Positions 2,786 to 24,715 of a stretch of DNA of 31,500 bases are shown piece by piece. Position numbers and translations under genes: made by a program. Below the pieces are notes generated by a model, which had not been told where the DNA came from, did not search any database, and saw only the letters and a list, made by a program, of their open reading frames with translations. The first letter of the stretch is position 1, and each line of letters starts with the position of its first letter. The DNA comes from a virus. Where the stretch lies: positions 1 through 31,500 of the IMG/VR virus record IMGVR_UViG_3300027784_000017; one strand, 5' to 3'.

Positions 2786-2971
2786 CTATCGGATGATCAT
2801 CTGTACGCGTCGGCAGCCCTTGCGGATCTCCTCGATGATATTCTCGGCGTCTGATATCGACATGCTGGACGCGTCTTTGCGGCGGTACGCTATCAACAGC
2901 CGATCGTCCACCTTCCGGATCCATCGGAGTTGTCCGACGCGTGTCTCAAACTCTACTGCTACCATGTTCAT
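2786..2971 (-). CDS. Small protein of unknown function
   Basis: 61 residues, last gene of the leftward early operon. The ATG overlaps the stop of the primase-helicase gene and has AGGAGG six bases upstream. The product starts with a short beta-like stretch (NMVAVEFETRVGQLRWIRKV), has a basic middle and ends in a helix-like segment (AENIIEEIRKGCRR). I do not recognise a family. The good ribosome binding site and coupling make it a probable gene. Confidence 0.6.
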   Translation of the reverse strand: MNMVAVEFETRVGQLRWIRKVDDRLLIAYRRKDASSMSISDAENIIEEIRKGCRRVQMIIR

Positions 2972-4665
2972 TCAGGTCCTCCTTTTCGCATTTTCTTGAA
3001 TACGCGCGACATCGTGTCGCGGCCTTCGATCTTGAGCTTCGAATTGAACTGGTCCTGATTAGTGATCTGCTGCGTGAAATCATTATCATCCGAACCGGCT
3101 TCGGCGTCGACTAGGGAGTCCGTCTTGGCCGTCGTGATATCGAAGTGCCAGTCCGTAATGTCGAAACTGATCTTGAGGGTGGATGGTACGGCCACGTTCT
3201 TGAAGTGGCGTTTCAGGTTAATCGTGCCCTCGTTACGGGTGGGGCGCAACTGCCATCCGGTCTCGAGCCATGCATTGAGGAACTGTGACCCCCACAGGCT
3301 CTCCCGGCCACTCATGTCCCCGCGCTTGACCGTGTGGTGCGCGATAATGAACGAGGTGCCGTACTCGTCGCGCAGGCGCTTGAGTTCGAGCATGTTCTGC
3401 GCGCCCTCGGCCATGTAGTCCTTGGAACTGATCGCCGAATAGAGCGGATCAATGATGACCATGCGCGGCCGTATCTTTTCCACGGCCTTCTCGAGACCCT
3501 CCACTGACTTGGGATCCTCAAAGTTTAGGCGCCGATCGGTGTGCCAGTGGATGGACGGCATGGGTGGGGGCTTGGGTAGGAAGTACTCCCCGGCCTTCTC
3601 GTGCGGCTCGCCGATATTCATGATCGAGCCTATGCGGCTGAACAGCATGGCGAAGGGATCCTCCTGCTGGATGATCAGGACCGGCCCGGGGTTCTCGACC
3701 GGGTACTGATTTAGGAACGGCTTGCCCGTGGCCACGCTGATCGCAAGATCGAGCAGGATCCACGTCTTATAGTTCGCCGGCGGTGCGACCACGAGGGCGC
3801 ACGTCGCCTCCGGGACCCAGCCTTCGACAGTCCATTGGGTTTCCTGAAGCCCGTACCGTTGCAGGGCGTCCTCGAACCCGTGGACCTTGAAGTAGTCCTC
3901 AGCGGCCACGGGATCCTTCTTGCCTTCTCCTAATTGCTCCTCCCGCGTGGCGCCCCATTTCTTCTCGATCGAGTTCACGATCTTTTCAACCTGCCATTCC
4001 GGAAGTGACGGCTGACAGTGGTCGGAGTTCCAGCCCTTTAGAATGTTCAGAACTTCCTGCTTCGGCAGTTCCGCCCGGAATAACTTGCCGGCGCGTCGCG
4101 TCAGTTCCGCGTCACGCTCGCCCTCTCCGATCGTACGCTGCCAGTCCTCATCCGTCACGCCCTTGGCCTTCTCGTTGCGATCCTGTCGGATCTTGTCGAG
4201 GAATGCCTGAGGCATGTCCGGGATGTCCTCCCAGCCCGTAAATCCGCCGACCCACTTGTACGTGGTGCCGTTCGGGTGCACGCTGGGCGGGGCCACGACG
4301 AGCCCGTTCTCCCCACGTATGTCTACGCCCGGGAGGATCCGGACGCCATTGGGGACGAAGCCGCCGGGATGGCGGAAGTAGAAGTGATATCCCCCGCCGC
4401 CCGTCTGTACCGTGGCCGGGGCCCCGTTAAGGTAAGAGTCAACGAGTTCCTTGCCCTCTTCACTATCAACATCGACGACGACGAGCCCGCTGATCTGTCC
4501 GGTCACGATCCCGACGTTCGCGTCAGGGTACTTGTTATTGAACCAGTGCCGGATCTTCTCGGGGTTCGCGCGCTCCTTCTGCCACGCCGCAAAGTAAGGA
4601 CGTTTTTGGTCGACAGGTATGACGTTCCACCCGATGTCATTGTATTTAAGTGCATCTTGAAGCAT
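2968..4665 (-). CDS. Primase-polymerase / replicative helicase fusion
   Basis: 565 residues. Residues 1-150 match the bifunctional primase/polymerase (PrimPol, archaeo-eukaryotic primase fold) N-terminal domain: WNVIPVDQKRP, an acidic VVVDVDSEEG and a histidine in GGGGYHFYF. Residues about 185-240 look like a PriCT linker (ERDAELTRRAGKLFR, then a KIVNSIEKKW end). The C-terminal half is a RecA-fold ATPase of the RepA/AAA_25 helicase type with an atypical P-loop APPANYKTW and a Walker B-like MVIIDPLYS. Inferred role: primer synthesis and unwinding at the phage fork, where phages of other families use a DnaG- and DnaB-like pair. The ATG has AGGAGG upstream. PrimPol genes are reported in several Z-DNA phages, which fits the PurZ-like and polymerase genes nearby. 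Confidence 0.85.
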   Translation of the reverse strand: MLQDALKYNDIGWNVIPVDQKRPYFAAWQKERANPEKIRHWFNNKYPDANVGIVTGQISGLVVVDVDSEEGKELVDSYLNGAPATVQTGGGGYHFYFRHPGGFVPNGVRILPGVDIRGENGLVVAPPSVHPNGTTYKWVGGFTGWEDIPDMPQAFLDKIRQDRNEKAKGVTDEDWQRTIGEGERDAELTRRAGKLFRAELPKQEVLNILKGWNSDHCQPSLPEWQVEKIVNSIEKKWGATREEQLGEGKKDPVAAEDYFKVHGFEDALQRYGLQETQWTVEGWVPEATCALVVAPPANYKTWILLDLAISVATGKPFLNQYPVENPGPVLIIQQEDPFAMLFSRIGSIMNIGEPHEKAGEYFLPKPPPMPSIHWHTDRRLNFEDPKSVEGLEKAVEKIRPRMVIIDPLYSAISSKDYMAEGAQNMLELKRLRDEYGTSFIIAHHTVKRGDMSGRESLWGSQFLNAWLETGWQLRPTRNEGTINLKRHFKNVAVPSTLKISFDITDWHFDITTAKTDSLVDAEAGSDDNDFTQQITNQDQFNSKLKIEGRDTMSRVFKKMRKGGPE

Positions 4666-4698
4666 GTATACCTGCCCTCCTTTCAGCGTTAGCGTGCA

Positions 4699-5136
4699 TT
4701 ATCTCTGTTGCATGTGTTTGAGGAATGTTACGGCACTTTCGAAGGTCGCCATCATGGGAGTATGCTTGAGATATGCCATGCGGTTAACGCGCTGAGGGTC
4801 AGGGGTTACGATTACGGTGGGCTTGCGTTGTTCTATCGCTTGCTGTATCTCCATGTAGGTGCCGCTGGTGTGGACATTGGGGTCAATGTAGACGATCAGA
4901 GCGTCGCTCTCGCGGATCGCCGTGTCGTTAATCACGCGCATGGCCCATGCGGTGCGCTTGTCCTCGCCCGAGTACGTAAATGCGTGCGCGGGAGAGAAGG
5001 AACTCATGCCGTGCTGCCTAAGGACGTCCCTAGCGGTTTCCCGCCACGATTTCCTGTCCTTGTCGGTAGCCATGTCGATGGCCCCGCAGAGATACACGAG
5101 ATCGATGACCTCCGGATTATCTGTGTGGTCTGTCAT
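4699..5136 (-). CDS. Nucleoside 2-deoxyribosyltransferase-like enzyme
   Basis: 145 residues. The N-terminus has YLCGAID, the usual start of the deoxyribosyltransferase / DUF4406 Rossmann-like fold. The C-terminal half has ESDALIVYIDP followed by TSGTYMEIQQAIEQRKPTVI, the family's (S/P)GTxxEixxA nucleotide-binding segment with the catalytic glutamate. Members exchange bases on deoxynucleosides or hydrolyse deoxynucleoside monophosphates. I chose the internal ATG because an AGGAGA box lies eight bases before it. The gene follows the AbrB-like gene, with the PurZ-like gene just beyond. A role in shaping the purine deoxynucleotide pool (for example removing dAMP or salvaging bases) is inference. 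The exact substrate is unknown. Confidence 0.7.
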   Translation of the reverse strand: MTDHTDNPEVIDLVYLCGAIDMATDKDRKSWRETARDVLRQHGMSSFSPAHAFTYSGEDKRTAWAMRVINDTAIRESDALIVYIDPNVHTSGTYMEIQQAIEQRKPTVIVTPDPQRVNRMAYLKHTPMMATFESAVTFLKHMQQR

Positions 5137-5140
5137 GCTA

Positions 5141-5401
5141 TCATTCTCCTTTCTCGTCAAAGTGACTGATATCTTTGATACACTGTTTGCAAAGGGCTCG
5201 ACCCTTCACATGCATGTGGGCCGGTGCCCCGCATATGATACACCGGCGTCCCTGCTGGCGTTGTGGGGACAGGATCAGGCGACGCCCATCCTTGTACATG
5301 TGGATGTTGTCGCCCTCCCGGATCCCGAGGGACTCGCGGACGGAGGCGGGGATGACTATGCGCCCCCATTCGCCCATGCGTTTACTGCTTAGGTATTCCA
5401 C
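5141..5401 (-). CDS. AbrB/SpoVT-type DNA-binding protein with C-terminal zinc ribbon
   Basis: 86 residues. Residues 5-45 match the swapped-hairpin AbrB/MazE fold: MGEWGRIVIPASVRESLGI then REGDNIHMYKDGRRLILSP. Residues 53-75 add a CIICG...LCKQC zinc ribbon. The GTG start overlaps the end of the PurZ-like gene by 20 bases and was chosen because it gives the whole AbrB domain; an internal ATG (5375-5377) would cut the first strand. AbrB proteins regulate transcription in transition phases, and with a zinc ribbon this one may act on phage or host promoters. It could also be an orphan antitoxin-like protein, but no toxin gene is adjacent. Confidence 0.75.
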   Translation of the reverse strand: MEYLSSKRMGEWGRIVIPASVRESLGIREGDNIHMYKDGRRLILSPQRQQGRRCIICGAPAHMHVKGRALCKQCIKDISHFDEKGE

Positions 5402-6452
5402 CGAAAAGATCCTCGAAGTCCTCGCGCTTTACGAAGTCATCCCAGTCCGGTCCGTCGCGCAATAGGATGACTGGAGCTTGGCCGCCGGCTTCGCGCTCCA
5501 TGCGCTTGATGTGCTGATAAATGTCAGCGCCACCGTTCAGTGCGGGGGCCCACCAGTCAATGAATGTGAGAATGATGCGGTCGGGCCCGGTCAGGGCGAG
5601 GGACTTGCGGTAGTCCTCCCAACTCCAAGTGAATACGCGTTCGCGATCCCCGGAGTCCGTTTGTCTCTTAGCCTTCTCGGGAAGGGTCTTGCCCATGGCT
5701 TCCTCGAGTTCCTCCCACGTGAGTTCCCGTGAGTCGTCGGCCACGGGGCCACTGTTCCCGGGCACACGCATGGGCACGGCGCGATAGATCGCGTACACGT
5801 GGCGCACGGCGCTGATCGGGATCCCGGCCTCGGCCAACAGGCCGGCGGGGGTTGTGTCCTTGGCGGTGCAGTAGGGATAATAGCCGTGGTTCAGGGACAG
5901 CAGGACACCCTGATTTCCTTCAAGTAGTCCGAGACCGCCGTCCTTTAGTTTCTCTTGCACTTTTGCATATACCTCGGTACTTACATATTCCGAGATCTCA
6001 GGATAGTCCTTCGCGAGCAAGGAAGACCCATCCCGGCGTGCTTTTGCGGCTGCTGTACGTCCGACGCCTTGGTGCGTGGTGCCTCTCCATGCGTTCGGAC
6101 TATGGTCTCCGATGTCCTTCGGAACGATGGCGGCCTGCGGGTCGATCCATAGGCGCTGGCGTACATTGTCCGGCCCGAACCGATCGATCAGGCTCTTGAT
6201 CTCCTCCTGCAGGGTGTCGAGTCGGATGACGTGCCCGGCTCCGAGATAGAGTGCGAGATCCGGGTCGATCCATGCGGCCGTCGGGATCACGCGGGATGTG
6301 TAGGACTTGCCGTCCGGGGTCTTGAAGCGGTGTTCTGCGTTGCTGCCACCCACGCGGATGGCGAAATCATAATCATTTTCATATGCGAGTTGTGCGGCCA
6401 CGGAGCCCTTGCCTTCGTCTCCGAATTGGCCGCCCACTACGATGTCGATCAT
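5382..6452 (-). CDS. purZ: PurZ-like succino-2-amino-deoxyadenylate synthase (PurA family)
   Basis: 356 residues from an ATG with AGGAGG seven bases upstream. Family motifs in order: VVGGQFGDEGKG (P-loop-like, Asp12), GGSNAEH (His41), RGTTHQGVGRTA, LLEGNQGVLLSLNHGYYPY, PMRVPGNSGP and DRIILTFIDWW. PurA joins aspartate to IMP; PurZ joins it to dGMP, the first step toward 2-amino-dATP. The short length (PurA is about 430), the EGNQG and RVPGNSGP variants, and the setting between replication genes point to PurZ and not housekeeping PurA. Asp12, equivalent to the catalytic Asp of PurA, is kept; as I recall, classical PurZ replaces it, so this may be the PurZ0 type. A longer in-frame form is possible (see 6453-6635). 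Confidence 0.8.
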   Translation of the reverse strand: MIDIVVGGQFGDEGKGSVAAQLAYENDYDFAIRVGGSNAEHRFKTPDGKSYTSRVIPTAAWIDPDLALYLGAGHVIRLDTLQEEIKSLIDRFGPDNVRQRLWIDPQAAIVPKDIGDHSPNAWRGTTHQGVGRTAAAKARRDGSSLLAKDYPEISEYVSTEVYAKVQEKLKDGGLGLLEGNQGVLLSLNHGYYPYCTAKDTTPAGLLAEAGIPISAVRHVYAIYRAVPMRVPGNSGPVADDSRELTWEELEEAMGKTLPEKAKRQTDSGDRERVFTWSWEDYRKSLALTGPDRIILTFIDWWAPALNGGADIYQHIKRMEREAGGQAPVILLRDGPDWDDFVKREDFEDLFGGIPKQ

Positions 6453-6635
6453 ACTTGTTCCTCCTTTGGGATTTGCGGCTTGGATCGGCGCCAAAGCGCC
6501 GTCCCGCTGCAGTTCTTGTATTTCGTCGAGTGTGTACATGTTATGTGTGCACGTATGACACAGGTAAATCACTTGGCCCGGCTCATTGAGTTCGTACCCA
6601 CGATAGAATGCGCGCCCGCAGTCATGACAGATCAT
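6453..6635 (-). other. In-frame zinc-ribbon module upstream of the PurZ-like core
   Basis: Sixty-one codons precede the PurZ-like ATG in the same frame without a stop. They begin with an ATG that overlaps the stop of the RuvC-like gene (ATGA), so translation can pass straight in. The segment holds CHDCG and CHTC, a four-ligand zinc ribbon, then a YTLDEIQELQRDG helix. Ribosomes starting here would make a 417-residue fusion, while the internal AGGAGG and ATG give the 356-residue enzyme. Both forms may be made. Otherwise this is a former separate small gene that lost its stop. Confidence 0.6.
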
Positions 6636-7066
6636 GATGCGAAGCCCTTAATGAGATAGTACAGGGCGTGCCGGGCGGCGTCCTTCTCGTGCGGGGTGTT
6701 GAGGTTCTCGATCCAACCGAGTTGCGATAGTTTGCTGTCAGTGGAGAAGGGTTTCACGGTACCGGCGCTAAATAGGACGGTCGGCACGTTCGCGACGTTT
6801 GCTGCATACCCGAGCATTCCGATCAGCCGGGCGGGAATGATACGATCGAAACCCATTTGCTGCGCCACCCACGGGTAAAGGACGAAGTCCTCTATGACCC
6901 ATGCGTCGGCGTCATTCCATCGGCCTTGCCGGAGCCCGTACTCAAGTTCCTCCGGGGTCACGGTTGCAGACTCTACCACCTCGCCCTTGTTAATGACGAT
7001 CACGCCCGTATGTTCGCCGGGGTCAAAGGCGACGACCTTCTGCTTCCTGTCTATGGGGATCCTCAT
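6632..7066 (-). CDS. RuvC-like / RNase H-fold nuclease
   Basis: 144 residues with RNase H-fold signatures: VVAFDPGEHTGVIV (first Asp) at the N-terminus, DAWVIEDFVLYP (Glu) in the middle and HEKDAARHALYYL (Asp) near the end. These are the acidic positions of RuvC-type Holliday junction resolvases, common in small phage replication modules. The ATG overlaps the polymerase stop (ATGA), so translation is coupled. Inferred role: resolving branched DNA before packaging. The start given skips nine upstream codons that overlap the polymerase end. Confidence 0.75.
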   Translation of the reverse strand: MRIPIDRKQKVVAFDPGEHTGVIVINKGEVVESATVTPEELEYGLRQGRWNDADAWVIEDFVLYPWVAQQMGFDRIIPARLIGMLGYAANVANVPTVLFSAGTVKPFSTDSKLSQLGWIENLNTPHEKDAARHALYYLIKGFAS

Positions 7067-8775
7067 ACTTCGAGATCCTCCGCGTCCGCCCATGTGTCTC
7101 CGACCTTGCCCTCGACGGTGATCGGGGCGCGAAAGTCAAAGTCCTCCATGATCCGCTTGATCTCCTTGGCCCAATACATGACTTCGTCCTCGGGCACTTC
7201 GAACAGGAGTTCATCGTGCACTTGGAGGACCATGTGAGCGCGGGACCCTTCGAGACGCTTGCCGAGCCGCGTGGTGGCGACTCGCATCATCTCGGCCACG
7301 CCGCCTTGGATCAGGTTGCTCATGGCCTTGTAAAACTCGTCTTGCGGGCGATAGTGGCGCAGGCGACCGGTCCACATGGGAATGTGGCCCTTGGTCTTAG
7401 CCATGCGCTCGGCGGACTTGTAGAGTTTGCGAATGCCGGGGATCAGACGGTGGTACTTGTTGAGGTATTCTGCCGCTTCCTTCTCCGGGATCTCGAGGTC
7501 GTGCGACAGGCCCCTCGCTCCGATCCCGTAGACCACGCTGAAGTTAATGCGCTTCGCGAGATCCCGCGGGAGGTCGAGTTCGTTCGCCGTCTGCGTATGG
7601 ATGTTCTCGCCGTTTTGGAACGCGTTCAGCAGAAAGGGTTCCTGCGTATAGTGCGCGAGTAGGCGAAGTTCGGCCTGACTCCAGTCGAAGGCCACGATCT
7701 TGTAGCCCTCCGGCGCGATGATCAGATCTCGGACCTTGTACTGACTCTTGCCCTTGGGCAGGCCCTGAAGGTTCGGCTTGCGGCAGGCTAGGCGTCCGGA
7801 GATCGTACCGTGCAGGAGCAGGCTCGGGTGGATCCGGTTGTTCTTGTCGGCAAGTTCTAGGAACTTGCTATAATAAGTGTTGATGGCCCGCGCCCACCCA
7901 CGATACTGAAGTAATTTCTTCGCGATGGGGTGCTTGGACTTGGCTAGGGCCTTCTTGTCCGTATGCTTCTGCCCGAGGATCTTGCGTAGTTGGGGCACGC
8001 TGTTCGGGTTGAACTCGTGTCCGACCTGCTCGACCATGTCCTGATAGAGTTGCTTGCGGTGCTCCGCAGCCTGCTCCATGAACTCCCGGCACTTGTCCGG
8101 GTCGATCAGGACGCCGCGGTTCTCCATGTTCATGATCGCCTGAAGGTATTCATTGATCTCGGGCCACAGGTGTGCGATCCCCTGCTCCTCGAGCCAGCCC
8201 TGATAGAACTGCGCCATGCGCCAAGTGATCCGGACGTCCATGGTCGCGTAGGGCTCGACGTCCTCGGGCGGGAGTTGGTCCATCTCGCCCTTGCCGAGTT
8301 TGCGCTCCTTCAGGAGGACGGCGAGTTGCTTGTCCGCCTCTACGGCCTCCGGGCCGATGTACTTGGCCGTGAGCCGCTTCAATGTAAACCCGAGTTCATT
8401 CTCGTTCGCCAAGTGGGCCGCCAGCATGACGTCCACCAGCGAGTTCCGGAGTTTGATACCCTCCGTAAGCGTAAATTGCGCGTCGAACTTAACATTGTAC
8501 CCTATCATGGCTCGTTCAGGGTCCTCGAGCACGGGGTAGAGATCCTTGAGTGCCGAGATCGGCAGGTTCTTGCCGACCTTGTGTCGGATCGGGATGTAGT
8601 AGTCGTTGCCTAGGCTTCCGCCTTCAAGGTCCGGGACCAAGATCGCGATCCCGATAACGTGGTCGTCCTCGAAGGGGTTCACGCCATTGGTCTCAAGGTC
8701 ATAGACGAAGACGTCCTTGACCTCTTGCAGTTCCCGTACTACTTCCTTTAGTTTCTCTTGCGTTTGAACTAGTAT
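7063..8775 (-). CDS. Family A DNA polymerase with 3'-5' exonuclease domain (DpoZ-like), apparent AUA start
   Basis: 570 residues. The N-terminal DEDDy-like exonuclease has VYDLET (Asp26, Glu28), then MIGYNVKFDAQF and the later EPYATMDVRITW. The polymerase domain has motif A DWSQAELR (Asp364), O-helix RDLAKRINFSVVYGIG and motif C VLQVHDELL (Asp521). There is no 5'-3' nuclease domain. No ATG, GTG or TTG lies between the in-frame TAG and the exonuclease motif. The only codon placed correctly behind the AGGAGG box (six-base gap) is ATA at 8773-8775, so I start there. A GTG start at 8682 would lose the catalytic DLE. Together with the PurZ-like gene this fits the DpoZ polymerases of Z-DNA phages; that link is inference. 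Confidence 0.9.
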   Translation of the reverse strand: MLVQTQEKLKEVVRELQEVKDVFVYDLETNGVNPFEDDHVIGIAILVPDLEGGSLGNDYYIPIRHKVGKNLPISALKDLYPVLEDPERAMIGYNVKFDAQFTLTEGIKLRNSLVDVMLAAHLANENELGFTLKRLTAKYIGPEAVEADKQLAVLLKERKLGKGEMDQLPPEDVEPYATMDVRITWRMAQFYQGWLEEQGIAHLWPEINEYLQAIMNMENRGVLIDPDKCREFMEQAAEHRKQLYQDMVEQVGHEFNPNSVPQLRKILGQKHTDKKALAKSKHPIAKKLLQYRGWARAINTYYSKFLELADKNNRIHPSLLLHGTISGRLACRKPNLQGLPKGKSQYKVRDLIIAPEGYKIVAFDWSQAELRLLAHYTQEPFLLNAFQNGENIHTQTANELDLPRDLAKRINFSVVYGIGARGLSHDLEIPEKEAAEYLNKYHRLIPGIRKLYKSAERMAKTKGHIPMWTGRLRHYRPQDEFYKAMSNLIQGGVAEMMRVATTRLGKRLEGSRAHMVLQVHDELLFEVPEDEVMYWAKEIKRIMEDFDFRAPITVEGKVGDTWADAEDLEV

Positions 8776-8816
8776 GTCGGTCCTCCTCTCCTATCTTGAG
8801 ACATAAAGAGTACAAA

Positions 8817-8839
8817 GGAGGGCAAAGGAGATGCCCTCC
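8817..8839 (-). terminator. Possible intrinsic terminator or processing hairpin before the polymerase gene
   Basis: A 7-bp perfect stem GGAGGGC / GCCCTCC with a nine-base loop lies between the stop of the DUF669-like gene and the polymerase. On the leftward transcript it is followed by TTTGTACTCTTT, a weak U-tract. It may lower readthrough so that polymerase is made in smaller amounts than the single-strand-binding-type protein upstream. Confidence 0.5.
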
Positions 8840-8851
8840 CGTGTACGTCTC

Positions 8852-9376
8852 TTATCCCTGAGCGGGCTTGTCTGCGTCAGGCTTGGCTGCACGGACTGCT
8901 GCCTCGTCCGCGGGATAGACCCGGTCGACCTTGTGCGTAGTGCGGTTGTCATATTCGTCATGAATGACGTCAATGATACAAGGCTTTCCGATGATGTCCT
9001 TCTGCGTGAAGCGGGCAACGGTGCCGGCGGCTTTGACGCCTACGGCCTCAAGGGTCTGTACGGTTTTCCAACGTGCCTGCGGGAGCAGGCTGGTCCAAAA
9101 GCGGACCTCGATGCCTTCGGAGTCTCCTGACGTGATCAGGAACTGCCAAATGTAGAGGGGGTTGCCGGTCTTGCTGGTCGACTTCTCAAAGTCAATAACC
9201 TTTGCGGGGTGCTTGCCTTCGGACGCCAGCGCGAAATCGCCGCCACCGTCCTCGTCTTGGAAGTCCTCAACGAACTCCTGATCCTGTTCTTGCTGGAGGC
9301 CCGAAACGGCCGCCTTTGTGTCTCCGGGGGCGCCGTTCGCGCCGGTGCCCGGAATGTTCGGTTTCTTGTCTGCCAT
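8852..9376 (-). CDS. DUF669-like single-strand DNA-binding protein
   Basis: 174 residues. The middle reads like the DUF669 family: a KHPAKVIDFEKSTSKTGNP strand with an IWQFLITSGD strand, then FWTSLLPQARWKTVQTLEAVG. The N-terminus and C-terminus are acidic or low in complexity, like the tails of single-strand-binding proteins. Members sit in phage recombination-replication operons beside a RecA-like ATPase, as here. I took the second ATG, because AGGAGA stands six bases before it while the first ATG abuts the box. Inferred role: coating or annealing single strands at the fork. Confidence 0.75.
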   Translation of the reverse strand: MADKKPNIPGTGANGAPGDTKAAVSGLQQEQDQEFVEDFQDEDGGGDFALASEGKHPAKVIDFEKSTSKTGNPLYIWQFLITSGDSEGIEVRFWTSLLPQARWKTVQTLEAVGVKAAGTVARFTQKDIIGKPCIIDVIHDEYDNRTTHKVDRVYPADEAAVRAAKPDADKPAQG

Positions 9377-9378
9377 AA

Positions 9379-10182
9379 TCATTCTCCTTCTTTAGTTTTG
9401 GACGTAACCATGTCCATTATTTTTGGCATTGAGGGATCCGAGAACACCATGCCGAGTTTATTTCCCGGCGTGCGGTCCTTCGCGATCCACTTGTCGTACG
9501 GTTGCGTGAGCAGTTTGCGCACGGTGCGCGTGTTGCCCTGCTCGTCCTGTTCGGTATCCGTGAACATGAAGCCCACGACGTCCATGTAGCCGAGGATCGC
9601 CGTGCGGAGTTTCGGCGTGAAGTTCGGTCCGATCGTCTCGTTCTTCTGCTTGTCCTGATCCGAACGCTCGGAAGCGATAAAGATCACGTGCATGGGCAGG
9701 TCGCGGAACTTGCGAACCCAGCGGCGCAGTTGTTGCGTCGAGGCCCCATAGTCCTCCTGCCATACGTCGTCGACCGAGGTGCGCTTCGCGCCTGATTTCG
9801 TGGTTGAGTCGAGTTGCTCCTGAACGATCCCCTCGATATTAACCATTTGCAGCTCGGATAGGCTGTCGATCACGACGGTCTGATAGGGGTGGTCGTCCTT
9901 GGCGAGGTACCAAAAGATCTGATCGAGGTGCTTGAAGTCCTGCAGATCCGTTACGTGTGGGACCTCGTCCAGTCCTAGGACCTCGATGTCCGTTACGCTG
10001 AGCATGCCGCCTTCAACGTTGATCATGAGCACGCGCTTGGTTAGCGGGTGCAGGTCAGCGGTAGCGGCGAGTGATGTCTTACCGACACCGGGCGGCCCAT
10101 ACAGAAGCATTTTGAGTTTGTAATTCTCGATTTGGGGTTGGTAAATGTGAAGCCCATTATCCGTAGAGTGTTTTTGAGTCAT
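9379..10182 (-). CDS. RecA-fold AAA ATPase (Sak4-like)
   Basis: 267 residues. Walker A is LYGPPGVGKTSL near residue 27 and Walker B is QTVVIDSLSEL near residue 100. A following VWQEDYGASTQQLRRW segment and the MHVIFIASER strand are typical of the phage AAA_24 / Sak4 ATPases. These are single-strand annealing or strand-exchange proteins that work with a DUF669/SSB-type protein and a nuclease, and both are neighbours here. The ATG with GAGGAGG upstream lies inside the last 26 bases of the preceding nuclease gene. Confident for fold and motifs, moderately for the recombination role. Confidence 0.85.
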   Translation of the reverse strand: MTQKHSTDNGLHIYQPQIENYKLKMLLYGPPGVGKTSLAATADLHPLTKRVLMINVEGGMLSVTDIEVLGLDEVPHVTDLQDFKHLDQIFWYLAKDDHPYQTVVIDSLSELQMVNIEGIVQEQLDSTTKSGAKRTSVDDVWQEDYGASTQQLRRWVRKFRDLPMHVIFIASERSDQDKQKNETIGPNFTPKLRTAILGYMDVVGFMFTDTEQDEQGNTRTVRKLLTQPYDKWIAKDRTPGNKLGMVFSDPSMPKIMDMVTSKTKEGE

Positions 10183-11149
10183 CTTCTTCCTCCTCTCTTT
10201 CAGGTTTCGGCATGAAATCGAGATCAATGATGTCCTCGACGTCTCTGCCCTTGAGTTGCTCGAGACATAACTCTCGATAAGGGCACGTGCCGCAGTGCAT
10301 GTGGGACTGAGCGCAATAGAGGTGCTTCTTGTTCCGAGTCACGTCCCAAACCATCTTCTCCATCTCCCGCGCAAAGATCTTGATCTCCTCGGGTGGACGA
10401 TAGATCCTGTACCTGCGGAAGAACTCGAAGTCCTTCAGTTTGGGTCGCATGTCTAGGTAGTCGTCGGGGTCCTGACCTGCCTCGCTGACGGTGCGCGAAT
10501 AGGTCTCCCAGTCCGAATAGATCTTGGCCCGGGAAAACTCGCCCTTTTGGGTGCGCTTCGGGATGGCCGGCGTCCTGCTGAGCAACTGATTATAGATCGT
10601 TCCGACGACCGGGTATCCGACGCGGTGCGCCGCATACTGATACACTCCGATCTGTCCGTCCATGAGGACTGCGTCCTCGGAGCGGAACTGCTTCGGGAAC
10701 TTGTGCTCCAGCAGCCACAGGTGTCCGTCGGGATCCTTGACGATGGCGTCAAAGTACCCTATGAGCCTAGTCCTGACTCCGCGGATCCCGATCGAGAACT
10801 TCTGTTCGACCGCGACCGTCTCGAACTTGTCGCCGTACTCCTTGATGTACCTTTCGACGATGTTGACGACCGTCCGGTAAATCTCATCGTACTCCTCGAT
10901 CTCCTCGTCAAACAGATCTGACTCGGCGATCTTCTTGTCGTACCATTCACGGAGTTCCTTGCGCCAGTCCTCCCCGCGCAGATACGCCGCGAGTGCGGTG
11001 TGTCCCGCAATACCTAGGGAAAGCGGGCGCGGGGTGCGCTTGGGCACGATCCGACGCACGTAGGTCCAGTACCACCTCATGCGGCAGGTGTTCCAAGTCT
11101 GTAACTCGGACCAACTGACGTGACCCTGTTTCTCCTTGTTCTTCGTCAC
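10157..11149 (-). CDS. PD-(D/E)XK nuclease of the RecB/Cas4 type with a cysteine cluster
   Basis: 330 residues. The N-terminus has SWSELQTWNTCRMRWYW, the cysteine-bearing start of Cas4/AddB-like nucleases. The core has LIGYFDAIVKDPDG and LWLLEHKFPKQF, which supply the Asp and E-x-K catalytic residues, then QIGVYQYA. The C-terminus has CAQSHMHCGTCPYRELC, completing a four-cysteine iron-sulphur cluster with the N-terminal cysteine. Inferred role: 5' or 3' resection for recombination with the downstream Sak4-like ATPase. GTG start with AGGAGG seven bases upstream, directly behind a consensus promoter, so it is the first gene of a transcription unit. Confidence 0.85.
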   Translation of the reverse strand: MTKNKEKQGHVSWSELQTWNTCRMRWYWTYVRRIVPKRTPRPLSLGIAGHTALAAYLRGEDWRKELREWYDKKIAESDLFDEEIEEYDEIYRTVVNIVERYIKEYGDKFETVAVEQKFSIGIRGVRTRLIGYFDAIVKDPDGHLWLLEHKFPKQFRSEDAVLMDGQIGVYQYAAHRVGYPVVGTIYNQLLSRTPAIPKRTQKGEFSRAKIYSDWETYSRTVSEAGQDPDDYLDMRPKLKDFEFFRRYRIYRPPEEIKIFAREMEKMVWDVTRNKKHLYCAQSHMHCGTCPYRELCLEQLKGRDVEDIIDLDFMPKPEREEEEDDSKTLYG

Positions 11150-11178
11150 TTTCTAACCTCCTTTCGCTGTTCATACCC

Positions 11179-11208
11179 ATTATAACACGGCTTGCCAAAC
11201 CCTGTCAA
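11179..11208 (-). promoter_or_regulatory. Sigma-A-like promoter for the nuclease-polymerase operon
   Basis: On the minus strand: TTGACA at 11208-11203, an 18-base spacer and TATAAT at 11184-11179, preceded by TG one base upstream (extended -10). The start point would fall about 20 bases before the GTG of the RecB/Cas4-like gene. Both hexamers are perfect consensus. The promoter lies between the helicase stop and the nuclease gene and should boost the replication genes. Confidence 0.9.
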
Positions 11209-11238
11209 ACAGATACGAATATTCTCGAGCCATGTAAC

Positions 11239-12933
11239 CTAACGCCCCGACTTGGCCCTCGCGTCGCGTCTCTCGATCACTGCATCCACGAGCCGCTTCT
11301 TATGCTTGTTGGTGTCCTCTATGAGCCTGTCCGCCTCGGAGTTCAGGGCGATCAGTTCTATCACGGTCACGGGCTTCGTCTGTCCGTGCCTGTGCACGCG
11401 ATCCTCCGCCTGCTTGTTCGTAGCGGGGGTCCAGTGCTTATCGAGGAGTATGACGACGCTGGCCGCCGTGAAGTCTAGTCCCTCGCCCCCGGCCTTGAGG
11501 GTAGTGAGTAGGACCTGAGTCTCGGGATCCGTGTTTAAAGCCGATATGGCCTCGCTTTGCTCCTCGTCGCTCGAAGCACCCGTGAAATATGTACACCCCG
11601 CCCCTGCTGCTCTGAGCTCTCTCGCGGCAAGCGAGATAGCCTCCGCGAATTGCGAGAACACTACGATCTTCTCGTCCGTGCTCTGCACGAACTCGACCAG
11701 TGCCTCGAGTTTGACGCTGGGGGCGTCGCTACCCACGAGTTCCGGCGATATGGCGATCTGCCGGCACCGCATGATCTTGCTCAGTACGATAGGCGCGACC
11801 AATATCTCCTGATCGGAGATCTCGGCCATGAGTTCCTCCCACATCTGATCATGGAGCCTTGCCTGCTTGCTTCCCATTTCGAGCCATATCTTCTGACGGG
11901 TCTTTTCAGGCATGTCCGGGAAGACCTCCTCCTTCTCCCTGCGGATGAAGTAGGGCGCGATCTCCTCGCGCAGGGCGTCCGGGTTCGAGGCGTGGTCGTC
12001 TATGACCCAGCCGAACCGGCCCGGGTGTGCGTTCGCATACTTCTTGACGAAGGACCAAAATGAAGTGTAGCGGTCCGGATTTATCACGTGGAGCAGGCTC
12101 CACACCTCCGGCACCCGGTTCATGATCGGCGTACCCGTGAGGAACCACGCATTAGGGGCCTTCTTGGCAAGCCTCGATACGTCCTGCGACTGTTGGGTCT
12201 TGCGGTTCTTGATGTTGTGCGCCTCGTCCACGATCACGACGTCCCAGTCCTGCTTGAGTAGTTCGTCAATGTAGTCGTGATCCCTGAGGACCATCCTCTT
12301 CTTGCCGTCGACCTTCTTCATCTGCTTGCCTCGCCGGGCAGCCTCGTAATGGATGATGAAGTAGCCATCGACGTACTGATTAAGGACCTCCGTGCGCTTC
12401 TTACGCGTGGATCCCACGAGACTGAGCACCCGCCGATCGGGCGCCCACTTGCGGATCTCGTCGTACCAATGGTGCTTCAGGTTGTTCGGGGCGATGATCA
12501 GGACCTTATTGGCGCGCATTTCCTCGGCCGTGATTATGGCCTCCACGGTCTTGCCGAGGCCCATGTCATCCCCGAGTATGGTACGCCGGGCCTTGAGTAG
12601 GAAGCCCACGCCGGTGCGCTGGAACGGATACAAGTATTGCTGGTTCTTACACGTGAGAGTCACGGGGGTGCCTTCCCGTATGTGCTCGAGTTCCTGCCTG
12701 TGCGCCTTCGCGCGTTCATACCACGCGTGCACGTCCGGATCCACGTACGCGCCCGGGAGCGCGCGCGTGAGATCCTCATACACGCCAAGATCGGGACTGA
12801 ACGTCCAGCCCCGATCGCGCTTATTAAAACGCCCGCCGCCCACGCGTTTTACCCGCGCATTTTCACTACGCGGGCATTTAACGAGCAGACGGCGGGGCTT
12901 TCTACTGGTCCATGTGATGTCAATGGTTGCCAT
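11239..12933 (-). CDS. SNF2-family helicase / translocase
   Basis: 564 residues. The N-terminal 100 residues are a small domain of unknown role. The ATPase follows: PFQRTGVGFLL (Q-motif region), LGDDMGLGKTVEAI (Walker A), VLIIAPNNL, IVDEAHNIKN (Walker B, DEAH), WFLTGTPIMNR, then in the second lobe KIVVFSQFAEA, GGEGLDFTAA and QAEDRVHRHGQTKPV (arginine finger). SNF2 proteins move along double-stranded DNA; phage members are placed in replication or recombination modules or counter host factors. The ATG has AGGAGGTC upstream and overlaps the previous gene by 14 bases. Confidence 0.95.
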   Translation of the reverse strand: MATIDITWTSRKPRRLLVKCPRSENARVKRVGGGRFNKRDRGWTFSPDLGVYEDLTRALPGAYVDPDVHAWYERAKAHRQELEHIREGTPVTLTCKNQQYLYPFQRTGVGFLLKARRTILGDDMGLGKTVEAIITAEEMRANKVLIIAPNNLKHHWYDEIRKWAPDRRVLSLVGSTRKKRTEVLNQYVDGYFIIHYEAARRGKQMKKVDGKKRMVLRDHDYIDELLKQDWDVVIVDEAHNIKNRKTQQSQDVSRLAKKAPNAWFLTGTPIMNRVPEVWSLLHVINPDRYTSFWSFVKKYANAHPGRFGWVIDDHASNPDALREEIAPYFIRREKEEVFPDMPEKTRQKIWLEMGSKQARLHDQMWEELMAEISDQEILVAPIVLSKIMRCRQIAISPELVGSDAPSVKLEALVEFVQSTDEKIVVFSQFAEAISLAARELRAAGAGCTYFTGASSDEEQSEAISALNTDPETQVLLTTLKAGGEGLDFTAASVVILLDKHWTPATNKQAEDRVHRHGQTKPVTVIELIALNSEADRLIEDTNKHKKRLVDAVIERRDARAKSGR

Positions 12934-13213
12934 GCTTTCTGACCTCCTTGAGGGCCTTCTTGAGTATCTTCAGACAGTTCCGGGCCTCTTCGGTCTCGAG
13001 GTGCTTGGAAATGTAGCGGTGCCGAGATCTCGCAATGTGCTTCATACCATCCTGATAGGTGTTGTCGATGGCTCGGACCTTGGGATCCGGAAGATCGTAG
13101 GCCTGAAGATCTTCGTAGGTGTGGTTGAGTTGCTTCTCGACCTGCCTGCGGTCTATCATTGGACCAAAACTGAATACTGGGATGAACAGGACGATAACTG
13201 TAATTAGTACCAC
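12920..13213 (-). CDS. Small single-pass membrane protein
   Basis: 97 residues from a GTG start with AGAGGT upstream. Residues 1-16 are strongly hydrophobic (VLITVIVLFIPVFSFG) and form a membrane anchor or signal anchor. The rest is charged and helical (QVEKQLNHTYEDLQAYD, later EEARNCLKILKKALKEV), like a cytoplasmic or external coiled domain. I recognise no family. It overlaps the SNF2 gene by 14 bases and belongs to the same leftward transcript. Confidence 0.65.
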   Translation of the reverse strand: MVLITVIVLFIPVFSFGPMIDRRQVEKQLNHTYEDLQAYDLPDPKVRAIDNTYQDGMKHIARSRHRYISKHLETEEARNCLKILKKALKEVRKHGNH

Positions 13214-13227
13214 GGTTTACCTCTTTC

Positions 13228-13500
13228 CTAATCCCAGCCGCGGCAGCCGCAGTAATAGGAGTCCTCGGACTGATCCGGCTGGTATTCAAAAAACGGGAGT
13301 CTCATGCTGCTCGTGGTCCTGCGTCCGCATTGTGAGCACCGGGCCACCCGACCGCTAAGGTCGGGAGACTCGGCTATCTGCCACGATCTCGGATCGGGGC
13401 AACAGATGGCGCAGACCACCTTGTCGCCATCGTGTGCGTTAGCGGTATGGCCACATTCCATCAATGGCGGCTCGGTCTGTTTCGTCGATGCCTTGCCCAT
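13228..13500 (-). CDS. Small zinc-finger protein
   Basis: 90 residues from the ATG at 13500; AGGAGG lies about 12 bases upstream, a somewhat long gap. Two metal sites are visible: MECGHT followed by VCAICC in the first half, and CSQCGRR followed by YYCGC near the end. The alternation resembles small zinc-ribbon proteins of Gram-positive phages, whose function is mostly unknown. It overlaps the end of the upstream gene by 62 bases. Cysteine density supports a real protein. Confidence 0.6.
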   Translation of the reverse strand: MGKASTKQTEPPLMECGHTANAHDGDKVVCAICCPDPRSWQIAESPDLSGRVARCSQCGRRTTSSMRLPFFEYQPDQSEDSYYCGCRGWD

Positions 13501-13789
13501 AAAGTATCTTGACCTCCTTGTCAAAGTGCTTGAGGCTGCGGAAGTCATTCAGGTTGAGACGCTTGTCGCGCGCCCAGTCGATCTCCGCCTGCCTGCGCTC
13601 CTGAGGCGTGGCGGGACGGATGAAGTAACACCCGTCCGGCGCCTTGCTCAAATGCAGTATTTCCTCGTCCTCCATGAGAGCCGGCAGTTCCTTGAGTACG
13701 ATACTCGAGTAGGTGTGATCTGTCGCGCTCTCCCTGGTGCGGAGGTACTTCATGATCCGGTTAGCCACTTGCTTGGGTCCTTGCTTCAT
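13439..13789 (-). CDS. Protein of unknown function
   Basis: 116 residues, ATG overlapping the stop of the upstream gene (ATGA), so probably translationally coupled. The sequence has a basic, helix-rich N-terminus (KQVANRIMKYLRTRE), a middle with LPALMEDEEILHLSKAPDGC followed by FIRPATPQERRQAEIDW, and an acidic C-terminus. The arrangement resembles a small winged-helix-like fold, but I cannot name a family. Confidence 0.6.
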   Translation of the reverse strand: MKQGPKQVANRIMKYLRTRESATDHTYSSIVLKELPALMEDEEILHLSKAPDGCYFIRPATPQERRQAEIDWARDKRLNLNDFRSLKHFDKEVKILYGQGIDETDRAAIDGMWPYR

Positions 13790-14133
13790 TCCTGCTGCGC
13801 CCCCACCTTGACGCCCTCGAGCTCGTAGAGTTCCTCCGGCTCGTGGCCGAAGTGTCCCTTAATCTGCTCGATCAGGAGCGCCTTGATGTTCCGGCACAAC
13901 TTGTATGAGGGTGCGGCGATCTCGTACTCTATGAGGAGTTCGTCCGCCTCATTGTATCCGAGCGAGAAGCGCGCGTCTCCGTAGTCCACCTGATCCTCGA
14001 GTCCTAGGACGTTCTCGAACCAAGACGCGGTTGCCTCGCCGTGCTCGGACATATATTCATGTACGTTCTCGCTGAGTACGAGCCACGATCCTTTGAGGGA
14101 CCGGCTGTTAGGTAGGTTCGTTTCATTCGTCAC
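13786..14133 (-). CDS. Protein of unknown function
   Basis: 115 residues from a GTG that overlaps the upstream stop (GTGA). It is an acidic protein with alternating strands (WFENVLGLEDQVDYGDARF, ELLIEYEIAAPSY) and a C-terminal helix. It shows no cysteine motif, membrane segment or nucleotide-binding motif. Codon use matches its neighbours. Its place in a run of overlapping genes is the main support. Confidence 0.6.
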   Translation of the reverse strand: MTNETNLPNSRSLKGSWLVLSENVHEYMSEHGEATASWFENVLGLEDQVDYGDARFSLGYNEADELLIEYEIAAPSYKLCRNIKALLIEQIKGHFGHEPEELYELEGVKVGAQQE

Positions 14134-14621
14134 TTGAGTAGCCTCCTCTTCTTGCTCTTGATCTGCTCGTCTACCTTGGCCTTGAGTTTTGTGCCCGCTT
14201 CGGAGCGCAGGAAGTCATAGGCCTCGTCCGGGATCTCGTCCTTGCTGTCCGGATCGAAATGGGCCTTGACGAACATTTTCACTAGTCTTGAGTCATGGCC
14301 CTGTCTGAAGCGTCTGCCCGGCTTCACGGGCTGGCCGCAGCCACACAGGCACTTGGGCGGATCCTGCTCGTCCTTGCGGACCTTCTCGCGTCGTTCCTCC
14401 GCCTTCTCCTTCGCCCGGTTCTTCAGGCGCGTGACCACGTTGTTTGAGAGCAGCAACAGGTACCCGCCCTGACCGTCGCGGCTGAAGGCCCTTGGAACGA
14501 CCTCGCCGATGGCGTCCTCTACGGCCATGGGCGCGTCAATGTTGTCGCGCTCTATGAACTTGGCCGCCTTCAGGATAATTGAGTACTTTTCATGATCGCT
14601 TAGTCTTACCGTTGTGGACAT
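14130..14621 (-). CDS. Small basic protein with a CxCGCG...GHD zinc-knuckle motif
   Basis: 163 residues, ATG start with AGGAGG about ten bases upstream. Residues 92-112 contain CLCGCGQPVKPGRRFRQGHD, a compact motif seen in several phage and bacterial small proteins, in which three cysteines and a histidine could bind zinc. It is flanked by a highly charged helix (LKNRAKEKAEERREKVRKDE) and a lysine-rich C-terminus (EQIKSKKRRLLK). This points to nucleic-acid binding, but the role is unknown. It overlaps the upstream gene by 32 bases. Confidence 0.65.
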   Translation of the reverse strand: MSTTVRLSDHEKYSIILKAAKFIERDNIDAPMAVEDAIGEVVPRAFSRDGQGGYLLLLSNNVVTRLKNRAKEKAEERREKVRKDEQDPPKCLCGCGQPVKPGRRFRQGHDSRLVKMFVKAHFDPDSKDEIPDEAYDFLRSEAGTKLKAKVDEQIKSKKRRLLK

Positions 14622-15171
14622 CTCTCTCTGTCCTCCTTATGATCCGAATGCCCTCAAAGGGGCCCGGATCGGATTTCACGTCGACGATAACGCCGCGTGT
14701 CTTGTTGATCTTGGCATATCTCTTCATGCGTGGGTTGTAGATCTGAACGAATTGGTCGTTGAGTTCCTCGGGGGTGCGCCTGACACGTCCGAGGTGGTCC
14801 GCCCACCGCTCGGTGGGAAAGGCGAAGTAGGACCACCCGAAGCGCCGGCGCAGGGGTCCGCACAACGTGCTCCACAGGATCGAGGGGATCCCGATCAGGA
14901 CGAGGTAGAGCGGACCCAGCCACCGGGACTGATATGAGTGTCCGATCTCGTGGCGTAGGTACTTCTCCCCGGATCCTCGGGGCACCATGATGAACTCCCC
15001 GAGCGAGATCCCGCCCCGGAGCCCGTCGATCGCGTAGATACGCGAGTCGAGTCCGGTGCTGGCGTCTCGCATGTGGATCGTCGTCGTGATCCGTCGGGCG
15101 AAGACCACCCGGAGGACCATTCCCAGCAGGTGCTGGGGCAGTTGCCAAATGAACAGAAGGGTCCTTTTCAT
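14590..15171 (-). CDS. Membrane-associated HEIGH zinc-peptidase-like protein
   Basis: 193 residues. A hydrophobic N-terminus (LLFIWQLPQHLLGMVLRVVF) precedes GGISLGEFIMVP, then YLRHEIGHSYQSRWLGPLYL with the HExxH zinc motif, a membrane segment (YLVLIGIPSILWSTL), and FPTERWADHLG, whose glutamate would be the third zinc ligand. The order resembles a small family of bacterial membrane proteins with HE(I/Y)GH..QS and PTE.WAD that looks metallopeptidase-like. The substrate is unknown; an action on host membrane or cell-envelope proteins is inference. The ATG overlaps the previous stop (ATGA). Confidence 0.7.
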   Translation of the reverse strand: MKRTLLFIWQLPQHLLGMVLRVVFARRITTTIHMRDASTGLDSRIYAIDGLRGGISLGEFIMVPRGSGEKYLRHEIGHSYQSRWLGPLYLVLIGIPSILWSTLCGPLRRRFGWSYFAFPTERWADHLGRVRRTPEELNDQFVQIYNPRMKRYAKINKTRGVIVDVKSDPGPFEGIRIIRRTERDVHNGKTKRS

Positions 15172-15881
15172 CCCAGCACCTCCTCCATCTCGTAAGTGAG
15201 TTCGCCCTCGTCGAGTTGCTTCTGAAAGTCGGCGATCTCCTGCCGGATGATCTTGTCCCGGGACTCGGAGAGGTCTGCCTTGTGACGGATCTCCTCGTAC
15301 CGCTCGTCCAAGTCAAACAGGGAGCAGTACGTTAGCATGAGTGCCGTGCGCATTTTGAACTTGAGTGCGTCCCTGACGTCATTCCGGAAGTCCTTCACGT
15401 TGTCCCACACGAAGGAGTCTATGTAAGCCTCGCGTATGTCCTCGTGGGTCACGCCCTCGCTGTCTAGAAACTCCTCCGCGAGTTCCCTGAGATAGTCCTT
15501 GTGCTCCCGGTTCTGCTGCCTTGCCCGTTTGTACATCTCCGTGTCCGCGATGTCCGTGTCCTCGACTGACCTGAACAGGCGGATGACGCGACTATGGAGA
15601 CGGCGCTCAGCCGCCTCCGTGGTCTCGTCCTCGTGCTCAGGGTAGACGTCGAAACTCGTCGTGACGCTGCTTGAGAATATGTCGTCCCTCGGACCTTGCA
15701 CGACCTTGAGCTCCATGCTCAGGTGCTTGTTCTGTACGTGGATCCGGTCGAGCCGGAGCACGACCTCGATGTCGTCATACTTGAAGATCGTCCACGCGGC
15801 GCGCCACAGTTTCGGGTTGAGGTAGTTGTTCAGGATGAAGTCGAAATTGATGTCGTACACCTTGTGCGCGAGTGCATTCAT
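15168..15881 (-). CDS. Large protein of unknown function
   Basis: 237 residues, ATG overlapping the upstream stop (TGAATG). The N-terminal half is predicted to be beta-rich (FKYDDIEVVLRLDRIHVQN, LSMELKVVQGPRDD); the C-terminal half is helical and highly charged with two coiled-coil-like stretches (EMYKRARQQNREHKDYLREL and SRDKIIRQEIADFQKQLDEG). I see no catalytic motif. It is the largest unassigned protein of the proximal early region. Confidence 0.65.
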   Translation of the reverse strand: MNALAHKVYDINFDFILNNYLNPKLWRAAWTIFKYDDIEVVLRLDRIHVQNKHLSMELKVVQGPRDDIFSSSVTTSFDVYPEHEDETTEAAERRLHSRVIRLFRSVEDTDIADTEMYKRARQQNREHKDYLRELAEEFLDSEGVTHEDIREAYIDSFVWDNVKDFRNDVRDALKFKMRTALMLTYCSLFDLDERYEEIRHKADLSESRDKIIRQEIADFQKQLDEGELTYEMEEVLG

Positions 15882-16225
15882 TCCTTATCCTCGACCCCCT
15901 CCGCCTTGTTCAGGGCCGTGACGTACGTGGTCTCCTCGCTAATGATCGTGAAGGGCTCCATGTCGAGTCCGTCCCTGAAACGCTTCTCCACCTCTTTGAC
16001 GACCTGACGCGGAGTTTTTGAGGGGTCCTCGGGGTCGCCCTGCGAGACGAGGATCAGAATGATCCGGTGGGAGTCTTCGTGCTCGCCTGTCTTGACCCCG
16101 CAGACCTCGTAATCGGTGTCCTCGATAAGCGAGTCAAATGCGTCCTCGTTGTTGTGCTTGTCGAGTTGCTCCTTGGGACCCAAATCATAGTTCCGGCTGT
16201 ATTGCGTAACGTCTTTTGTTGCCAA
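15878..16225 (-). CDS. Small protein of unknown function
   Basis: 115 residues from a TTG whose AAGGAG box lies nine bases upstream. The nearer ATG (ending at 16234) abuts the box and is less likely to be used. The protein is acidic. Its middle (DTDYEVCGVKTGEHEDSHR then IILILVSQGD) suggests a small alpha-beta fold, and the end is EETTYVTALNKAEGVEDKE. No family recognised. The stop overlaps the next gene. Confidence 0.6.
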   Translation of the reverse strand: MATKDVTQYSRNYDLGPKEQLDKHNNEDAFDSLIEDTDYEVCGVKTGEHEDSHRIILILVSQGDPEDPSKTPRQVVKEVEKRFRDGLDMEPFTIISEETTYVTALNKAEGVEDKE

Positions 16226-16244
16226 TGAAACCATCTCCTTTAGA

Positions 16245-16595
16245 TTATAGTTTTTTGTTCCTATGACGCTTGAGTCTCTTGCCCTGCTTCTCGTGAAGTA
16301 GAAGAATGTACGCGTTGAAGAATGCATGGTCGAGATGGGGCATCCCGCTCTCGGGATCCGTGATCTCGCCGTCCTGCCATGCAAGCAGGTGCCGATACAG
16401 GGCGCCGAGATAGGTGTCCGGCTGCCCGAGTTCGTACGTGGGTCCGTGCTCGACCCCATACTTATTGAGCCCGTACCTTAAGGTTTCGCCTAGTGACTTC
16501 ATAGCCACGGGGTCGATAAGTTGCATGGGCGGCTTGTCGAGCGTGCTCTTGTGGTCGTAGTCCATGTGCTCCTTGCTGCTTTTCGTCTTGCTCAT
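16245..16595 (-). CDS. mazZ: MazZ-like dATP/dGTP diphosphohydrolase (MazG fold)
   Basis: 116 residues. The motif order LIDPVAMKSLGETLRYGLNK, then YLGALYRHLLAWQDGE, then DPESGMPHLDHAFFNAYILL is that of the dGTP/dATP diphosphohydrolase N-terminal family (MazG-like all-helical fold). In Z-DNA phages such as Acinetobacter phage SH-Ab 15497 this enzyme (MazZ) cuts dGTP to dGMP, the substrate of PurZ. Glutamates and aspartates in ITDPESG and HLDHA would hold the magnesium ion. The ATG has AGGAGG six bases upstream. It lies about 10 kb from the PurZ-like gene but on the same strand. It could be a general phage nucleotide hydrolase. Confidence 0.75.
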   Translation of the reverse strand: MSKTKSSKEHMDYDHKSTLDKPPMQLIDPVAMKSLGETLRYGLNKYGVEHGPTYELGQPDTYLGALYRHLLAWQDGEITDPESGMPHLDHAFFNAYILLLHEKQGKRLKRHRNKKL

Positions 16596-22885: not shown

Positions 22886-22887
22886 CC

Positions 22888-24540: not shown

Positions 24541-24713
24541 CGTACATGCCGAAACCCAAGTTCATGGAGAACGACGAATGGTACTACTTCGATTTCGAGA
24601 CGGGCACCGTGAAACTCACGGAGAAGGCGCCCAAGGAAGCGAAGGAGAGTTATGATAAGTTCATGAAGCAACTCGGTGGGACCATCGAGGCCCCCGAGGA
24701 CGAAGAGGATTAA
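24537..24713 (+). CDS. Small acidic protein of the head region
   Basis: 58 residues. The ATG overlaps the MuF stop (ATGA) and has AAGGA upstream. The sequence starts MTYMPKPKFMENDEWYYFDF and ends with an acidic tail. Its strand-rich start (WYYFDFETGTVKL) and helix suggest a small fold. I recognise no family. Such partners of toxin-like domains are sometimes immunity proteins, but this is speculation. A short terminator follows directly. Confidence 0.6.
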   Translation: MTYMPKPKFMENDEWYYFDFETGTVKLTEKAPKEAKESYDKFMKQLGGTIEAPEDEED

Positions 24714-24715
24714 AC

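Follow-up and report, generated by a model that had tools for sequence, protein, structure and literature searches.

An apparent third lineage of PurZ-like synthetases in a phage locus with a candidate altered-adenine pathway

The virus record IMGVR_UViG_3300027784_000017 of IMG/VR, analysed here over a stretch of 31,500 nucleotides (hereafter the window), encodes on its minus strand a PurA-family synthetase whose lineage is apparently a third one, distinct from those of PurZ and PurZ0, the synthetases associated with 2-aminoadenine (Z) in phage DNA. It seems about an even chance that this locus specifies a phage pathway in which dGMP is turned into a purine deoxynucleotide aminated at position 6 and destined for phage DNA, most likely 2-aminoadenine by way of a new active site, and Z in the phage DNA is a reasonable inference from the sequence. 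An initial annotation had proposed a Z-genome pathway from a PurZ-like synthetase, a MazG-fold dGTP/dATP diphosphohydrolase and a family A polymerase, and Pfam matches place a synthetase, a DUF5664 gene and a family A polymerase on the minus strand where it had put them. The idea of an altered-adenine genome is strengthened by a nucleoside deoxyribosyltransferase (NDT) family gene that had been overlooked (4699-5136, PF05014 E 1e-10), which lies directly 3' of the synthetase gene, while the labels PurZ and DpoZ, for the synthetase and the polymerase, fail direct tests. The features on which the proposal turns are as follows.

5382..6452, minus strand: PurZ-like synthetase of the putative third lineage, 356 amino acids (PF00709, tree, residues, AlphaFold/Foldseek)
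6453..6635, minus strand: in-frame N-terminal extension, CxxC...CxxC zinc-ribbon-like (sequence)
4699..5136, minus strand: NDT-superfamily protein, DmtZ-like (PF05014, residues, fold match)
16245..16595, minus strand: stand-alone DUF5664 dATP/dGTP diphosphohydrolase-like protein (PF18909)

Lineage and active site of the synthetase

The synthetase open reading frame (5382-6635) matches PF00709 (E 1.3e-32), and its closest relatives in the PDB are phiVC8 PurZ (E 3e-40) and archaeal PurA (E 6e-34). The ATG at 6452 is its probable start, giving 356 amino acids, because a strong Shine-Dalgarno sequence, AAAGGAGG, precedes it. The zinc-ribbon-like extension may be translated from a start at 6635 that is ATGA-coupled to the upstream RuvC-like gene, or may not be part of the enzyme. 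In the related loci L008-L010 and L088, an AbrB/MazE plus zinc-ribbon gene stands on its own just 3' of the synthetase. An AlphaFold model of the synthetase has a confident intact fold (pLDDT 86), and its top Foldseek match is phiVC8 PurZ (6tnh, TM-score 0.82), with archaeal PurA also among the best. By curated models the protein belongs to neither PurZ nor PurA, since it scores below the cut-offs of the PurZ model NF038379 of NCBIfam (178.8 versus 300 bits), the archaeal PurA model NF003295 (175.9 versus 368 bits) and the PurA model TIGR00184 (122 versus 396 bits).

Among deposited phages there was no close relative, the best matches being vibriophage PurZ at 31-32% identity, and tblastn against IMG/VR recovered about 14 relatives at 34-55% identity; more occur on two contigs from genome bins, one attributed to a member of the Spirochaetaceae and the other to a member of the Syntrophomonadaceae. 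A midpoint-rooted tree built from 54 sequences gathered all 16 clade members tested, which are only 37-56% identical to each other, into a single group (support 100/100), and PurZ, PurZ0 and the clade grouped together at 95/94, apart from archaeal PurA and other phage PurA. The approximately unbiased (AU) test rejected a tree in which the clade was forced together with archaeal PurA (p 0.030) and allowed its union with either PurZ (p 0.35) or PurZ0 (p 0.07), so the clade is placed, on sequence grounds, as a third and apparently undescribed lineage beside PurZ and PurZ0, with no sister group singled out by these tests. Grouping with IMP-using PurA, one outcome that the initial annotation had named as contrary to its claim, was not recovered, as the phylogeny gives this third branch.

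Residues were read from one shared alignment with a comparison set of 43 PurA, PurZ and PurZ0 sequences, and are given in what we take to be the E. coli PurA numbering. The P-loop and the Asp13, His41, Gln224 and Arg306 positions are kept across the clade. Asp13 and Glu14 (GDEGKG) are as in PurA, with Asp13 in all 15 readable clade members, the window included, and Ser at site 13 in 9/9 of the PurZ and PurZ0 sequences compared; His41 stands within the motif NAEHR. Two features are common to the clade and PurZ/PurZ0 and absent from 34 PurA sequences. The loop after Val273 is lengthened (RV(P)GNSGP; RVPGNSGP in the window and RVAGNSGP in PurZ0), and Arg303 is lost, with Asp at this site in the window and Asp, Glu or another residue across the clade. 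Both the loop insertion and the arginine at 303 have been linked to deoxyribose selection (PMC8342488), and in H. pylori PurA the 2'-OH of IMP is bound by the equivalent residue, Arg294 (PMC11571797). In addition, Lys331, a GTP contact within TKxD, is Phe or Tyr in the clade and Phe in PurZ, and the Phe of S-2L PurZ at this site stacks on adenine.

Other changes are found in the clade alone, and none of them occurs in any of the 43 comparison sequences: Gly40 to Glu together with Thr42 to Arg (NAGHT to NAEHR, 16/16), Ile126 to Arg (15/16) and Arg305 to Glu (16/16). The aspartate loop TVT/TTTGRxRR is replaced by TDSGxxER, ...EEER or GGxER, so that the window synthetase (TDSGDRER) lacks the TTVT...RR loop of PurZ/PurZ0 and the clade lacks the Arg303, Arg305 and TKxD with which PurA binds ribose, aspartate and GTP. 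The active site of the clade therefore appears to match neither the known viral PurZ-type enzymes nor cellular PurA. Because Arg305 has become Glu and the TVT/TTT loop is gone, L-aspartate is doubtful as the amine donor.

These substitutions bear on an alternative of appreciable probability, though less probable than synthesis of Z, in which the amine that the enzyme joins to dGMP, or to a different purine deoxynucleotide, is not L-aspartate and the reaction yields an undescribed N6-substituted 2-aminoadenine or adenine in phage DNA, the accessory enzymes still draining dATP. Such a donor would fit the loss of Arg303, Arg305 and the TVT/TTT loop, of which only the loss of Arg303 is also seen in PurZ/PurZ0, and the fact that Glu40 and Arg42 adjoin the metal and donor-phosphate site. 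It would also fit the structure of H. pylori AdSS, in which Arg294 and Arg296 (303 and 305) bind an anion in the aspartate site, Arg296 holding a sulphate (PMC11571797), and the clade records in which no PurB gene was found. However, the clade-specific Arg42 (16/16) and Arg126 (15/16) could take over carboxylate binding, and the neighbourhood of the synthetase held no recognisable gene for making an unusual amine.

An ordinary auxiliary enzyme of the PurA type, which makes adenylosuccinate from IMP and raises host purine supply, is improbable. The intact catalytic Asp and GDEGKG are those of PurA, and many phages have PurA-like genes with this Asp and a canonical loop (L020-L086), but the clade lies apart from both phage and archaeal PurA, scores below the archaeal PurA cut-off, no longer has the TTTGRxRR loop or the Arg303, Arg305 and Lys331 that nearly all PurA retain, has gained the PurZ-type insertion and co-occurs with a DmtZ-like NDT. 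Still harder to sustain is a decayed or repurposed synthetase, for example a non-catalytic or regulatory protein, with no modified base made; several substrate residues are indeed altered, but the changes are uniform across these divergent sequences, the conserved catalytic positions listed above are retained and the model is of a confident intact fold.

Compared with known enzymes, the preferred candidate, a Z-forming synthetase, shows both likenesses and differences. With PurZ of the phiVC8, S-2L and SH-Ab 15497 type, the clade shares the fold, the short form, the RV-xGxSG insertion, a PolA/PrimPol neighbourhood, Phe where PurA has Lys331 and, in several members, YPYCT; it is 33% identical and differs in Asp rather than Ser, NAEHR rather than NAGHT, the missing TTVTxxxRR loop and Glu for Arg305, and no DatZ or MazZ/DUF550 was found with the window synthetase. 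With PurZ0 of Ghobes, Wayne/Cholula and Hiyaa it shares the RVxGNSGP loop, the accessory NDT (DmtZ) and DUF5664 genes, an NDT-dUTPase fusion in one member and a replication block of Cas4/PDDEXK-type nuclease, Sak4/RecA-like ATPase, PrimPol and PolA, whereas Asp for Ser, the different aspartate loop, a PolA that is not DpoZ-1, the lack of dutZ in the window and an identity of about 30% set it apart. Archaeal short PurA of the Pyrococcus horikoshii PH0438 type resembles it in length, Asp/GDEGKG, fold and about 31-35% identity, but is without the PurZ-type insertion, and its Arg303, Arg305, TVTGRxRR and TKxD are all altered in the clade. The claim of a PurZ-like synthetase thus holds for the grouping with PurZ and PurZ0, the two deoxyribose-selection features and the neighbours seen in PurZ0 phages, but not for membership of PurZ or PurZ0, given the score, the retained Asp and the different aspartate loop.

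Accessory enzymes and polymerase

The NDT gene, whose start at 5136 is preceded by a strong ribosome site of the AAAGGAGG type, adjoins the synthetase and encodes equivalents of five of the six key residues of Ghobes DmtZ, the dAMP/Z enzyme of PurZ0 phages (PMC12884076). These are the catalytic triad Tyr6, Asn77 and Glu103, together with Asp12 and Pro57, whereas the Trp124 lid is Val in the window. The fold matches deoxyribosyltransferases and DNPH1, and tblastn with this protein against phage records gave no match at 1e-5.

Half of the clade loci (8/16: the window, L008, L009, L010, L013, L014, L016 with a weak match, and L088) and all three fully read PurZ0 loci carry an NDT, compared with 0/67 other phage PurA loci and 0/78 archaeal PurA loci searched with the same profile. 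The contrast with other phage PurA loci has a Fisher p of 3e-7, although the profile was built from the NDTs of the clade and PurZ0 and so favours their loci; an independent Pfam search of the clade records confirmed the NDT in six of the eight. In L014 the NDT is fused to a dUTPase, and a DmtZ-DutZ fusion occurs in 77/85 dmtZ-bearing PurZ0 genomes (PMC12884076). A different protein with CGSTRF...NVGGYIG and no PHROG match is encoded at L190:1034-1552, 3' of a further clade member (GDEAKG, NAEHR, EEER), and looks from its sequence like a nucleoside-deoxyribosyltransferase fold.

The claim of a MazG-fold dGTP/dATP diphosphohydrolase was borne out in substance, as the window encodes a stand-alone DUF5664 protein (the dATP-dGTP diphosphohydrolase N-terminal domain, PF18909; E 2.5e-19, 69.5 bits versus a gathering threshold of 27) with a strong Shine-Dalgarno sequence, AAAGGAGG, at its start (16595), but not in name, as MazG (PF03819) had no match in the window or in 14 clade records. 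A DUF5664 gene is present in the window and L010, and the stand-alone DUF5664 protein of Wayne hydrolyses dATP, dGTP and dUTP (PMC12884076). The scanned proteins of the window gave no match to DUF550, HD/DatZ or dUTPase. Loci L008, L010 and L088 continue with ribonucleotide reductase genes. The dUTPases of clade loci were not counted as evidence because they are also frequent beside other phage PurA genes in control loci. Directly upstream of the synthetase in L017 lies a gene (9162-9857, PHROG 1663) that was considered as a dUTPase and rejected, being dCTP deaminase-like.

The neighbouring replication genes of the window include the polymerase and PrimPol that the initial annotation had described.

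7063..8775, minus strand: family A DNA polymerase with 3'-5' exonuclease and no 5' nuclease (PF00476, PF01612)
2968..4665, minus strand: PrimPol, bifunctional primase-polymerase with PriCT-1 and AAA_25 (PF09250)
6632..7093, minus strand: RuvC-like protein between synthetase and polymerase (PHROG 1981; also in L008, L009, L010 and L087)
8852..12933, minus strand: replication block of DUF669, Sak4-like AAA_24 ATPase, PD-(D/E)XK nuclease and SNF2 helicase (conserved in clade members)

The polymerase, with PF00476 (E 3.5e-78) and PF01612, is as described a family A enzyme with proofreading and without a 5' nuclease, features that it shares with DpoZ-1 and DpoZ-2. Since its Exo I motif YDLETNG precedes the first ATG, GTG or TTG of the open reading frame, the coding sequence probably begins at an ATA (8773-8775, minus strand) that lies at the expected spacing behind a strong Shine-Dalgarno sequence, GAGAGGAGGA, and aligns with the Met (ATG) of relatives; this ATA is either an uncommon start codon or the result of mutation or of an error in sequencing. 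As a DpoZ, the polymerase does not hold up. It scores below the cut-offs of both DpoZ models (NF038380, 213 versus 500 bits; NF038381, 66 versus 350 bits), and a small tree gathers 10/12 clade polymerases in a separate group (100/99) distinct from DpoZ-1 and DpoZ-2, with those of L013 and L014 near DpoZ-1. The helix-O Phe459 common to both DpoZ groups (PMC8599892) is Tyr in 11/12 clade polymerases, the window included; the only one with Phe is that of L018 (2-1525, NFGIVFGIG). A polymerase of another type is nevertheless compatible with Z-DNA, because S-2L replicates such DNA with a non-selective PrimPol once dATP is removed (PMC8065100).

Proposed pathway and points against it

In the proposed pathway, DUF5664 would convert dATP to dAMP and dGTP to dGMP, as its homology to the assayed Wayne enzyme suggests, and would thereby drain dATP and supply the substrate. 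The synthetase, to judge by its residues, would phosphorylate O6 of dGMP and add an amine at position 6 with the retained Asp as base, choosing deoxyribose through the PurZ-type insertion and the absence of Arg303. The amine donor would most likely be L-aspartate, held in a rearranged and charge-swapped site with Glu for Arg305 and new arginines in NAEHR and before the GTT motif, and host PurB and kinases would then yield dZTP; this is the weakest step. The DmtZ-like NDT, from its catalytic residues, may remove dAMP, salvage the Z base to dZMP, or both. PolA and PrimPol would copy the genome from a dATP-poor pool, for which a non-selective polymerase would suffice, as in S-2L. What the analysis shows directly is the gene content, the lineage, the residue states and the association of genes, and from these the substrate, donor, product and base in the DNA are deduced.

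Several observations weigh against this proposal. The clade retains the catalytic Asp at a site that is Ser in 147/147 phage PurZ and PurZ0 (PMC12884076), and Arg305, part of the aspartate site of PurA (PMC11571797), is uniformly Glu. The main weakness is that the arginines that bind aspartate are lost, with reversal of charge, throughout the clade; new arginines close by may stand in for them, or a different donor may be used and give a new base. No phage PurB (PF00206) was found in 14 clade records, though the host could supply it. Many of the clade loci are only partial contigs, but about half of the loci show no NDT or DUF5664 gene. Several clade members encode MT-A70 or N6/N4 DNA methyltransferases, and the polymerase is excluded from DpoZ by both NCBIfam cut-offs and its Tyr at the Phe459 site.

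The phage enzymes PurZ and PurZ0 are regarded as products of a single event, of which the change of this Asp to Ser is the mark. A third lineage with deoxyribose-selecting features and the same accessory enzymes, yet with Asp, could be an intermediate that explains the origin of PurZ from an archaeal-type PurA; alternatively, it could be a second chemical solution to reading guanine, or a route to a new DNA base. A literature search for PurZ-type enzymes with a retained Asp, the 2023 PurZ0 paper lying outside it, found none. If true, the proposal would extend altered-base genomes to phages with Bacillota-like features and provide new enzymes for synthesis of altered-base DNA.

Gene layout, host signals and other genes

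The record is linear; its plus strand carries a structural module that resembles those of siphoviruses, and its minus strand the genes for replication and nucleotide metabolism. The three genes of the initial annotation had been described as spread over 10 kb; the DUF5664 gene does lie 7.5 kb off, but once the NDT is counted the scatter is smaller than was thought, because the genes for PrimPol, the NDT, the synthetase, the RuvC-like protein and PolA form one unbroken run (2968-8775, minus strand). Across clade loci the synthetase neighbours include PolA, PrimPol, DUF669, a Sak4-like ATPase, a PD-(D/E)XK nuclease and an SNF2 helicase.

Host signals are mixed, as the terminase is closest to phages of Pseudomonadota and an uncultured phage, and the capsid to a Bacillus phage. 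The structural module (20184-26605, plus strand) is a mosaic in which the terminase is nearest to Brevundimonas, Desulfofustis and uncultured phages and the capsid nearest to a Bacillus phage (52%). Genes for MT-A70-type adenine methyltransferases lie near the synthetase at L008:8458-9018, L009:4632-5186 and L087:1365-2039 (directly upstream in L008 and L087), and other N6/N4 DNA methyltransferases are encoded in L003, L012, L013 and L014. The window also contains a calcineurin-like phosphoesterase gene (1963-2739, plus strand), members of whose family are found near the synthetase in L012 and L013.

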